The position numbers and the translations under genes are program-made. Under the pieces are notes generated by a model. It made no database searches. It was not told the DNA's origin and saw only the letters and a list, made by a program, of their open reading frames with translations. 64,000 nt of DNA. Origin: Lysobacter sp. MMG2. Lineage in GTDB: Bacteria > Pseudomonadota > Gammaproteobacteria > Xanthomonadales > Xanthomonadaceae. The DNA lies in contig NZ_JAERQY020000001.1 of assembly GCF_016735495.2 (NCBI RefSeq), positions 1,550,001-1,614,000 of the forward strand, read 5' to 3'. Positions 6,406 to 58,212 of the stretch are shown here, piece after piece; position 1 is the stretch's first letter, and each line of letters begins with the position of its first letter.

Positions 6406-6447
6406 GAGCCCCTCTCCCGCTTGCGGGAGAGGGGTTGGGGTGAGGGC
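6406..6447 (+). repeat. Short hairpin repeat (CCCCTCTCCCGC type)
   Basis: CCCCTCTCCCGC, a short loop and GCGGGAGAGGGG, followed by TTGGGGTGAGGGC. The same unit recurs at 9213-9254, inside the PBP2 gene (33015-33139) and inverted at 58174-58212. It could end the transporter transcript although there is no T-run. Confidence 0.8.
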
Positions 6448-9212: not shown

Positions 9213-9254
9213 GATGAGCCCCTCTCCCACCGGGAGAGGGGTTGGGGTGAGGGG
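9213..9254 (+). repeat. Short hairpin repeat (CCCCTCTCCC type)
   Basis: CCCCTCTCCCACCGGGAGAGGGG followed by TTGGGGTGAGGGG, the same unit and orientation relative to the upstream gene as at 6406-6447. Confidence 0.78.
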
Positions 9255-31827: not shown

Positions 31828-32940
31828 TCAGCGCGCGTAGATCGGCCGGTGCGCGCGAACGGCCATCACCACGCCCAATCCCGCCAGCAGCGAGACGGCC
31901 GACGTGCCGCCGTAACTCAACAGCGGCATGGGCACGCCGACCACCGGCAGCAGGCCGGAGATCATGCCGCCGTTGACGATCACGTACACGCAGAACGCCA
32001 GGCCGAGCGCCCCGGCGATCAGTCGCGAATAGCCGTCGCGCGCCTCCGCCGCGATCCACAGGCAGCGGCCGATCACGAACAGGTACAGCGCCAGCACCGT
32101 GCCCACGCCGATCCAGCCGAACTCTTCGCTCAGCACGGCGAAGATGAAGTCGGTGGTGTGCTCGGGCAGGTAATTGAGGTGCGACTGCGAGCCCTGCCCC
32201 CAGCCCTTGCCGGTGAGGCCGCCCGCGCCGATGGCGATCTTCGACTGGATGATGTTCCAGCCGGTGCCCAGCGGATCGGACTCGGGATTGAGGAAGGTGA
32301 GGATGCGGTCCTTCTGGTACGGGCGCAGCAGCCAGAACCACGCGACCGGCGCCACGGCCGCGACCGCGCCGAACGCCATGCCGAACCACCACCACGGCAG
32401 TCCCGCCAGGTACAGGGCGAACGCGCCGCTGGTGGCAACCAGCATCGCGGTGCCGAAGTCGGGTTGGAGCAGGATCAGGCCGGTCGGCACGGCGATCAGC
32501 ACGCCGGCGATCAGCACCGTGCGGAACCGCGGCGGCAACGCCTGCCGATCGAGGTACCACGCGACCATCATCGGCAGGCTGAGTTTGAGCAGCTCGGCCG
32601 GTTGCACGTAGACCACGCCGAGGTTGATCCAGTGGCGGCCGTGCTTGCCGGTGCCGATCAGCAGCACCAGCACCAGCGGCAGCAGCGAGGCGCCGAACAC
32701 CAGCGGCGTCCAGTTGCGCAGCTGGTTGGGCGGCACGCGCGAAAGCGCCCACATCACGCCCAGACCGGCGACGAAGAACGCACCCTGGCGCACGACCAGC
32801 CCCATGGCGTGATCGGCGGCGCTGTACAGCACCGCCAGGCCGATCACCATCAGCGCCAGCAGCGCGCCGAGCAGCGGCAGATCGAGCGTGCGCGCGAAGC
32901 GCACGAGCAGGTCGAACAGCCAGCGCAGGATCAGCCTCAT
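31828..32940 (-). CDS. rodA: Peptidoglycan glycosyltransferase RodA
   Basis: SEDS-family polymerase of the elongasome, 370 residues with about ten membrane segments. The WINLGVVYVQPAELLKLSLPMM stretch, LLQPDFGTAM with the catalytic Asp, and the C-terminal NGGMISGLLPVVGVPMPLLSYGGTS motif are diagnostic. It pairs with PBP2, whose gene is directly upstream and overlaps by 4 nt (ATGA), so the two partners are made in step. Confidence 0.95.
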   Translation of the reverse strand: MRLILRWLFDLLVRFARTLDLPLLGALLALMVIGLAVLYSAADHAMGLVVRQGAFFVAGLGVMWALSRVPPNQLRNWTPLVFGASLLPLVLVLLIGTGKHGRHWINLGVVYVQPAELLKLSLPMMVAWYLDRQALPPRFRTVLIAGVLIAVPTGLILLQPDFGTAMLVATSGAFALYLAGLPWWWFGMAFGAVAAVAPVAWFWLLRPYQKDRILTFLNPESDPLGTGWNIIQSKIAIGAGGLTGKGWGQGSQSHLNYLPEHTTDFIFAVLSEEFGWIGVGTVLALYLFVIGRCLWIAAEARDGYSRLIAGALGLAFCVYVIVNGGMISGLLPVVGVPMPLLSYGGTSAVSLLAGLGVVMAVRAHRPIYAR

Positions 32941-35132
32941 CGGGTGGGTTCCTGCGGTGGGGTGGGTTGCGGTGGCTGTTGCGACAGCGGTTGCGATTGT
33001 CCCGGCTGCGGCGCTTCCCTTCTCCCGCTTGCGGGAGAAGGTGCCCGGAGGGCGGATGAGGGCAAGGGCGCCGGCGGCGTTGAAGTCACCACGGCCGCTT
33101 CGTTCGCCCTCACCCCTCTCCCGCCAGCGGGAGAGGGGCTCGATACAGCCGTGGCGCCCGCCGCGACGGGCGTTCCCGCCACCGGCAGCAACGTCGGCAC
33201 CGGACCGGCCGCCGTGCCGGCGACCGCAGTCACCGGCGCCGCATGCGGCTGGGCCGGGCGCGTGTACTTGGGATCGGTCGGCACCGGATCGGGCATCTTG
33301 CCCAGCAGCCAGGCATCGAAGATCTTGCGCGCGATCGGCGCCGCGGTGCTGCCACCGAAGCCGCCGTGTTCGACCGAGATCGCCACCACGATGGTCGGGT
33401 TGTCGGCCGGCGCATAGCCCACGAACAGCGCCTGGTGGCGCAGGTGGTAGGGCAGCGAATGCGGATCGAAGCTCTGGCTGCCCTTGCGGCTGATCTTCTG
33501 CGCGGTGCCGGTCTTGCCGGCCATCATGTACGGCGCGCCGATCGCCATCGCGCGGCCGGTGCCGCCGGCGCCATGGATGGTCTGGATCATGCCTTCCTGC
33601 ACCGCGCGCAGGTTGCTGGCGTTGTCGGTGATGCGCGATGGCGCGGGCTGCGGCAACGGCACCCACGGCGTGTCGTAGCCGTCGCGGCGCTCCGAGACCA
33701 GGTGCGGTCGCATCAGGTCGCCGCCGTTGGCGATCGCTCCCGTGCCGCGCACCAGCTGCAGCACCGTGGCGATCCAGTAGCCCTGGCCGATGCCGGCGTT
33801 GACCGTCTCGCCCGCGTACCACGGCTCCTTGGTTCGCTTGCGCTTCCAGTCCGGCGACGGCACCACGCCCTTGTTCTCGCCCGACAGGTCGATGCCGGTG
33901 GGCGCGCCGAATCCATACTTGCGCATGTATTCGTCGAATCGCTCGATGCCCATCTCGTAGGCGAGCTTGTAGTAGTAGAAGTTCACCGACGCGGCGATCG
34001 ACTTGCGCAGGTCCGTCCAGCCCGCACCGCCGTGCGCGTCGCGCCAGCCGCGCTTCTGCCCGGGGATGTAGAACGTGCCGGTGGAGAACACCTTCGACTC
34101 GGGCGTGCGCAGCCCGCTGTCCAGGCCGGCCAGCGCGATCAGCGGCTTCACCGTCGAGCCCGGCGGGCCGCCGCCGAGCACGTTGCGGTTGAACAGCGGG
34201 CGCGACGGGTTGTCCATCAGCGCGCGGTAGTCGACGTTGGAGATGCCGTTGACGAACAGATTGGTGTCGTAGCCCGGCAGGCTGACCATGGCGAGGATTT
34301 CGCCGGTGCGCGGGTCCATGGCGACGGCCGAGCCGTCCATGTCGCCGAACGCCGTCACCATCGCCTGCTGCAGGTCCAGGTCGATGCTGAGCTTGAGGTC
34401 GGCGCCCGGCGTGGCCGGAACATGCCCGACCTGGCGCATCGGCCGGCCGTCGACGTTGGTCTCGATCTGCTCGTAACCGACCTTGCCGCGCAGCGCTTCC
34501 TCGTAATAGCGCTCCAGGCCGGTCTTGCCGACGTGGGTCAGCGCGGCCCCGCCCTCGCCCAGGTCCTTGAGGTCGTCGGCGTCGATGCGGCCGACGTAGC
34601 CGATCACGTGCGAAAGCAGTTCGCCGTAGGGATAGCGCCGGTTGAGGTAGGGCACCAGGTCCACGCCGGGGTAGCGCCAGCGGTCCACGGCGAAGCGCGC
34701 GGCCTCGTCCTCGGTGACGCGCAGCTTGAGCGTGATCGGCTTGAAGCCGCGCGTGGCGCGACGCTCGTCCTCGAACCGCGCCTTGTCCTCGGGCGTCAGC
34801 GCGATGATTTTCGCCAGCGAGGGCAGCCAGGTGTCGGTCTTGCCGGCTTCGAACGGCGTCACTTCGATGCGGTACGCCGGCACGTTGTCGGCCAGCACGC
34901 GGCCCTTGCGGTCCAGGATCAGCCCGCGGCCCGGCACCACCGGACGCAGCTTGATGCGGTTGGCTTCCGAGCGCGTGGCGTAGTCGGCGTGCTGCAGGAC
35001 CTGCAGGCGGAAGTACCAGAAGCCCAGCCCGGCCAGCGCCGCCAGCACGCAGATGAAGGCGATCGCGGAGCGCAGGCGGAACTGGTTGGCTTCGGCTGCG
35101 CTGTTCTTCAGGACGCGACGACGCGGGCCCAT
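32937..35132 (-). CDS. mrdA: Penicillin-binding protein 2 with a repeat-extended C-terminal tail
   Basis: Elongation-specific transpeptidase, 731 residues. An N-terminal membrane anchor (about 20-40) precedes the pedestal domain and the transpeptidase domain with Ser326-TVK329, SVN at 382-384 and KTG at 540-542. The family core ends near residue 613 (IARKIFDAWLLGK). About 118 further residues are a Pro/Ala/Ser-rich tail; residues about 665-676 and 690-706 are encoded by two copies of the intergenic hairpin repeat. I chose the ATG at 35132, 1 nt after the mreD stop; an upstream in-frame ATG lies inside mreD. Confidence 0.95.
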   Translation of the reverse strand: MGPRRRVLKNSAAEANQFRLRSAIAFICVLAALAGLGFWYFRLQVLQHADYATRSEANRIKLRPVVPGRGLILDRKGRVLADNVPAYRIEVTPFEAGKTDTWLPSLAKIIALTPEDKARFEDERRATRGFKPITLKLRVTEDEAARFAVDRWRYPGVDLVPYLNRRYPYGELLSHVIGYVGRIDADDLKDLGEGGAALTHVGKTGLERYYEEALRGKVGYEQIETNVDGRPMRQVGHVPATPGADLKLSIDLDLQQAMVTAFGDMDGSAVAMDPRTGEILAMVSLPGYDTNLFVNGISNVDYRALMDNPSRPLFNRNVLGGGPPGSTVKPLIALAGLDSGLRTPESKVFSTGTFYIPGQKRGWRDAHGGAGWTDLRKSIAASVNFYYYKLAYEMGIERFDEYMRKYGFGAPTGIDLSGENKGVVPSPDWKRKRTKEPWYAGETVNAGIGQGYWIATVLQLVRGTGAIANGGDLMRPHLVSERRDGYDTPWVPLPQPAPSRITDNASNLRAVQEGMIQTIHGAGGTGRAMAIGAPYMMAGKTGTAQKISRKGSQSFDPHSLPYHLRHQALFVGYAPADNPTIVVAISVEHGGFGGSTAAPIARKIFDAWLLGKMPDPVPTDPKYTRPAQPHAAPVTAVAGTAAGPVPTLLPVAGTPVAAGATAVSSPSPAGGRGVRANEAAVVTSTPPAPLPSSALRAPSPASGRREAPQPGQSQPLSQQPPQPTPPQEPTR
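33015..33139. repeat. Two inverted hairpin repeats inside the mrdA coding sequence
   Basis: CTTCTCCCGCTTGCGGGAG with GAGGGCGGATGAGGGC (33018-33063) and the oppositely placed GCCCTCACCCCTCTCCCGCC...GGGAGAGGGG (33106-33139) are the same unit as the intergenic hairpin repeats at 6406, 9213 and 58174. Together with about 42 nt between them they encode part of the PBP2 tail without disturbing the frame. Confidence 0.85.
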
Positions 35133-36691: not shown

Positions 36692-36846
36692 CGGGAATGG
36701 GGAATCGGGAATGGAGAGTAGGAGAGCGTCGCGCCTGTGCGCTTGCCATGCCGGCGGAGCACCCCGCCCCGCCCGGCATGCTTGTACTGGGACCAGGCCG
36801 GGAACGCCGCAGCGCAGCCGCAACGATTCCCGATTCCCGATTCCCC
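36692..36846. repeat. GGGAATC iterated inverted repeat between mreB and mreC
   Basis: A left arm of GGGAATGGGGAATCGGGAAT and a right arm CGATTCCCGATTCCCGATTC (36827-36846) can pair across a loop of about 105 nt. The same GGGATTC iteration occurs at 39128-39203 and 53845-53920. Confidence 0.7.
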
Positions 36847-58173: not shown

Positions 58174-58212
58174 GCCCTCACCCCAACCCCTCTCCCGGCG
58201 GGAGAGGGGCTT
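58174..58212 (-). repeat. Short hairpin repeat (CCCCTCTCCCG type), inverted
   Basis: CCCTCACCCCAACCCCTCTCCCGGCGGGAGAGGGG is the reverse complement of the units at 6406 and 9213 and lies 20 nt beyond the S9 peptidase stop, so its orientation relative to the upstream gene is preserved. Confidence 0.78.

Follow-up and report, generated by a model that had tools for sequence, protein, structure and literature searches.

A REP-like palindromic repeat in frame at the 3' end of mrdA in Lysobacter sp. MMG2, probably derived from a dispersed intergenic family

In Lysobacter sp. MMG2, the 3' end of mrdA, the gene of the cell-wall enzyme PBP2, carries a composite palindromic element. The element is in frame with the gene and belongs to a hairpin family dispersed through the same genome. 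The mrdA tails of relatives include repeat-free forms, and decayed forms of the repeat are present in some of them. We consider it likely that a single REP-like, non-autonomous palindromic intergenic element of approximately 125 bp was inserted into the 3' end of mrdA and tolerated there, the encoded peptide being probably neutral or nearly so. The site offers a clear example of an intergenic repeat that turned into coding sequence in a core cell-wall enzyme, and among relatives it is found empty, decayed or intact. Repeats within genes are known as such, but several relatives carry the repeat at this site, with the same direction and reading frame. The window referred to below is the whole 64,000-nt stretch that was analysed, and all positions given are positions within it.

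The mrdA reading frame is located at 32937..35132 on the minus strand (start ATG 35132) and its product matches PF03717 and PF00905. Its stop codon overlaps the ATG of rodA (31828..32940, minus strand; PF01098) as ATGA at positions 32937-32940. In E. coli, mrdA is essential and its product is periplasmic. The transpeptidase domain spans 33318..34334 (minus strand; PF00905, E 6.2e-67; residues 282-620 of P0001), and since the domain stops at residue 620 when the protein is read from TTG 35177 (746 residues), the repeat is contained wholly within the PBP2 tail. The element itself (33013..33141, minus strand) encodes the peptide SPSPAGGRGVR...PSSALRAPSPASGRRE and can be described along the coding strand as follows. 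Hairpin A (33113..33138; stem of 12 bp, CCCCTCTCCCGC/GCGGGAGAGGGG, loop of 2 nt) is followed by the linker TGAGGGC (33107..33113), a spacer, the linker GCCCTCATCCGCCC..CGGGCACC of the B side (GCCCTCATCCGCCCTCCGGGCACC, 33040..33063) and hairpin B (33018..33041; stem of 11 bp, CCTTCTCCCGC/GCGGGAGAAGG, loop of 2 nt), all on the minus strand. Both hairpins are in the mrdA frame and correspond approximately to residues 665-705 of 731, numbered from ATG 35132. A reading of this DNA based on sequence only had placed in-frame hairpin repeats at 33015..33139, ahead of the overlap with rodA, which is correct. It had described them as two copies of one unit inverted to each other. The repeats are indeed present, but they form two hairpins with four arms: the exact 11-mer CCCTCTCCCGC, found at 33114-33124 on the plus strand and at 33127-33137 on the minus strand, represents the two arms of hairpin A alone, whereas the arm of hairpin B is the variant CCTTCTCCCGC. 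Taken as 25-nt arms, hairpins A and B are 88% complementary. The window contains the 11-mer five times, where 100 shuffles gave 0.07 on average. The 136-nt coding strand containing both hairpins folds with -83.6 kcal/mol (z -5.5), a value equalled in none of 200 shuffles.

Hairpins of the form TCTCCCGCNNGCGGGAGA, with at most one mismatch allowed, are found 77 times in the 4.17-Mb, 10-contig genome and not once in the reversed control. The complete A-spacer-B composite was detected with a strict pattern at three further loci (L106, L110 and L114), and close-set hairpin pairs are also observed at L010 and L098. Within the window, a further hairpin A copy of the same family (6410..6433, no strand assigned) lies, by eye, directly past an apparent gene end, and copies with a shorter loop are located at 9220-9240 and 58188-58208. 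Genome-wide, 36 hairpins are of the long-loop kind (mrdA copy included) and 29 of the short-loop kind. Of the 77 sites, 50 were considered further, all of them exact matches; three are in the window (two in mrdA), and the coding status was assessed for the two mrdA hairpins and for the 47 outside the window. A codon model built from the other genes of the window was applied to the two best open segments with a threshold of 60 codons and +10 upstream, a procedure that would miss hairpins near gene starts because 60 coding-like codons are required upstream. The open segment upstream of the two mrdA hairpins scored +207 and +215 and none of the 47 others passed; a looser first version of the test singled out L001 and L099 as weak cases, in each of which the hairpin lies on the 5' side of an open segment. 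The mrdA gene is the exception among the sites examined, and the family, with its many and mostly extragenic copies, is a dispersed REP-like repeat in the broad sense. No orientation bias relative to the upstream gene was seen among the 47 hairpins (19 forward and 16 reverse for the 35 called with a rough gene finder, 12 uncalled). An inherent scarcity of stop codons in the repeat was considered and rejected: the 47 single copies have on average 5.06 of six frames open, and 42-mers drawn at random from the window (2000 of them) have 5.08. As to the full elements, the one in the mrdA gene of MMG2 is stop-free in four of six frames and that of strain CFH 32150 (G019) in two of six.

The family extends well beyond this genome. 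Of the 24 family genomes examined, 21 contain A hairpins, and the number per genome ranges from 0 to 262; the highest count belongs to G072, where many of the listed hairpins are paired 50-57 nt apart. The B side matches 130 plasmid or chromid records, 106 of which are from Sinorhizobium or Rhizobium. In the best 20 of these 130 records the likeness to the mrdA element concerns only the B side of the query, with 80.6-85.7% identity, and 19 of the 20 display no annotated gene beneath the match (one record is unannotated and the gene table is incomplete). Judging from these matches, the repeat family may span the alpha- and gammaproteobacteria. The rhizobial repeats are possibly of the RIME type (rhizobial mosaic elements such as RIME1 and RIME2).

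The mrdA tails were compared in 123 genomes, namely 120 of the 189 matching family genomes (198 searched) together with G001, G002 and G009; G157 was left out as its contig ends there. Within the genus, mrdA is present in 12 of 12 genomes: that of MMG2 (G000), one of the same species (G009) and ten of other species. The mrdA match of G001 is divided over two reading frames (L060/L061), which suggests a frameshift or a sequencing error. The G009 tail is identical to that of MMG2. Measured from ARKIF, the MMG2 tail is 131 aa long, and in nine of the ten other-species genomes it amounts to 78-100 aa and contains no intact repeat. The L. arvi tail (G002) reaches 127 aa and includes a copy that has decayed but is in the same frame. 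In the genus relatives, mrdA still overlaps the following start codon as ATGA or GTGA. Across the 123 genomes, the shortest tail has 7 aa and the longest 150, the median being 74. The comparison of C-termini proposed in the sequence-only reading thus returned empty, decayed and intact versions of the site, and the idea that a repeat became protein sequence is upheld by these shorter tails, by the A-spacer-B copies elsewhere in the genome and by the fact that none of the 47 other hairpins examined passed the coding test.

Each tail was then scored against 1000 codon shuffles of itself. Both halves of the element were matched in none of the 1000 shuffles for G000, G009, G002 (decayed), G019 (intact) and G035 (a Lysobacter MAG, decayed), and in G139, also decayed, the B half alone stands out. 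Clear copies are accordingly present in six of the 123 genomes, which represent five species and four genus codes. A B-like remnant was detected by the same procedure in G007 (L. soli); the value obtained for B in G001 (2/1000) is close to the chance expectation over 246 tests. As the hairpins are palindromes, G000 and G019 score high in the reversed orientation too. In all five species with a clear copy, orientation and reading frame are identical and PSSA is found at the B linker. A stretch in G008 could be a deletion remnant; its pattern is seen in 0 of 20000 shuffles and in one of 123 genomes, but it was picked after viewing G008 and could serve as a lead, not as a test. Taken with the possible remnants in G007 and G004, this stretch suggests that an older insertion may have occurred within the genus. 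Such an insertion fits poorly with the perfect hairpins of MMG2, unless the copy was renewed or constrained.

Two explanations that dispense with an inserted repeat of no function were weighed. In the first, the Ser/Pro/Gly-rich tail would only resemble the repeat through convergent amino-acid composition. The tails of relatives are generally Pro/Ala-rich, which is in its favor, but the hairpins are perfect, the linker sequences match as well and the DNA match of both halves exceeds what codon shuffles of the very same tail can produce. Convergence is refuted by this DNA-level match and has practically no likelihood left; the sequence-only reading had named relatives with the same protein tail but lacking repeat-like DNA as the finding that would contradict repeat capture and imply convergent composition, which the shuffles reject. 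The same reading had also considered that RNA structure might have been positioned at the translational junction. The hairpins would then be a functional structure that guards the upstream mRNA or tunes the coupled translation of rodA. The fold is very stable, its stems are perfect both in CFH 32150 and in the MMG2 species, and the distance from the end of hairpin B to the rodA start is 77 nt. In addition, the MMG2 species ranks second highest of 11 genomes for how open its rodA ribosome site is predicted to be. None of the ten other-species genus genomes nevertheless possesses an intact hairpin pair, which is absent or decayed in at least nine of them (decayed in L. arvi). The openness values of 0.56 at the ribosome site and 0.43 at the start are furthermore to be compared with 0.04-0.64 and 0.30-0.70 in ten relatives, two copy carriers (G002 and G019) included. 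A placed RNA switch is disfavored because the predicted openness of the rodA start is not distinct from that of these relatives, and a functional RNA structure appears quite improbable. A search of Rfam with E values up to 10 gave 25 matches. All stayed below their gathering score, the best being miRNA models with E 0.03 or worse.

The age of the copy and the number of arrivals are addressed by synonymous divergence, by the loops and by the mrdA phylogeny. The dS between the MMG2 species and nine congeners is 0.285-0.350. The value for G062, a member of another genus with a higher dN, is 0.265; as this falls under the congener range, synonymous sites are not clock-like and the dS clock is a rough one. 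On this rough scale, with half of 0.29 on the MMG2 branch, an insertion older than the nearest split should have gained approximately seven changes in its 46 stem bases. None is observed, so that the copy arrived after the split, was renewed or is constrained. The MMG2 copy looks young. The copy of CFH 32150 also has perfect stems and is of the short-loop kind, and its genome contains six exact short-loop hairpins (mrdA copy included) and no exact long-loop hairpin. The long loop of the MMG2 copy and the short loop of the G019 copy lean weakly to separate arrivals, the argument being weak because the MMG2 genome holds both kinds. A quick mrdA tree of 41 rows puts the filled genomes at four positions, with G035 and G139 together, which amounts to at least four changes; this tree includes long branches (0.3 for G035 and G139, longer for others) and a G001 row that is only 36% filled.

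A single ancient insertion in the ancestor of the family, passed on to the five species and since lost or degraded in the others, would account for the identical orientation and frame, for the remnant-like stretches in G007 and G008 and for bits of spacer that G000 and G002 have in common by eye. It is at odds with the scattering of the filled genomes on the tree and with stems that stay intact in two distant lineages despite the synonymous divergence (dS available for the MMG2 genus only). The spacers of G000 and G019 also appear unrelated by eye, and the difference in loop kind counts weakly against it. We regard one such ancient event as rather unlikely. It is also doubtful, though conceivable, that intergenic repeats recurrently land in, or are retained by, the mrdA tail of this family, with several independent captures in the same orientation and frame. 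The rodA frame and the Pro/Ser/Ala peptide of the used register would then act as a filter, and selfish repeats would supply raw material for the tail. The chance that four separate events agree in register is about 1/64 if four open registers are equally likely, a rough, post hoc figure that rises with fewer events. Such agreement may point to descent or to selection in favor of a Pro/Ser/Ala peptide, and the recurrence of the register may reflect descent, repeated insertion or selection. If it reflects repeated capture, the frame and coupling constraints of an overlapping junction would filter selfish DNA into protein. If the case is an ordinary one, it represents one further intragenic REP in a dispensable tail.

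The preferred reading, insertion of one REP-like element, can be summarized as follows. An element composed of hairpin A, spacer and hairpin B would have entered the 3' end of mrdA, by transposition or copying as we infer. It would have been tolerated for three reasons: the tail that follows the transpeptidase domain of PBP2 is Pro/Ala-rich, evolves fast and appears dispensable; no stop interrupts the element in the register used; and the net length change preserves the frame up to the ATGA junction. The element would survive selection as the translation of rodA, presumably coupled through ATGA, is maintained. Considering the topology of PBP2, the tail is presumably disordered and periplasmic, and the extra residues are very probably neutral or close to it. 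The same orientation and frame in five species are nevertheless more orderly than pure neutrality predicts. A MITE would be marked by a target site duplication and by terminal inverted repeats in common with a transposon; no clear target duplication is apparent by eye at the mrdA site, and the search for a parent transposon covered PF01797. The description of the repeat as mobile-like holds for its dispersal, from which mobility is inferred; a RAYT-type transposase (Y1_Tnp, PF01797) was not found in the 10-contig draft, and one of the 12 genus genomes gave a weak match below the cut-off.

The element may be compared with several known systems. According to PMC3733652, intragenic REPs of the GTAG and CGTC families are short palindromic sequences, often dimers, that are mostly intergenic or near 3' ends; a few lie in frame in known genes, slightly more than 10% of the in-gene cases being at the gene end. 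The peptides encoded by dimers or groups amount to 20-30 residues, and two Xanthomonas species carry a REP at approximately the same site of recB (PMC3733652). The mrdA element is likewise a short palindromic doublet in frame at a gene end, but it belongs to a different sequence class and the gene affected is mrdA: GTAG is found within 10 nt of the stem core in only one of 47 hairpins and CGTC in none. REPINs, as described in PMC3116915, consist of two inverted REPs that form one multicopy unit and are associated with RAYTs. The mrdA element shares with them the two inverted hairpins with a spacer and the multicopy doublet (L106, L110 and L114) and differs by non-identical halves and by the lack of a GTAG tag and of a PF01797 transposase. 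The repeat behaves like a GTAG REP or REPIN but was filed as neither because of the missing tag and transposase. In Rickettsia, palindromic elements are found in frame in conserved protein genes, as outlined in PMC3733652. The mrdA copy likewise lies in frame in a conserved gene, some homologues of which have no such element; the comparison is one of description, not of sequence, the host is unrelated and a single gene is affected among the MMG2 sites examined. Intragenic REPs and Rickettsia palindromic elements are already published, and the mrdA case adds one more. A literature search for a palindromic repeat or REP in mrdA or PBP2 found no report, a prior listing in the supplement of PMC3733652 being possible.

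A second type of repeat was encountered in mrdA tails. In two other genera, G031 (L147) and G123 (L154) display in-frame runs of GATTCCC/AATCCCC-like units at the mrdA 3' end. GGGAATC heptamer repeats are known from Xanthomonas (PMC4692102), and the units found here resemble them and are unrelated to the A-spacer-B element. These two genomes of 123, considered without shuffle control, fit a general tolerance of the mrdA tail for intergenic repeats. Three tandem GATTCCC heptamers are also located at 36825-36845 of the window, between two reading frames that we take to be mreB and mreC, and are likely the same kind of heptamer repeat.
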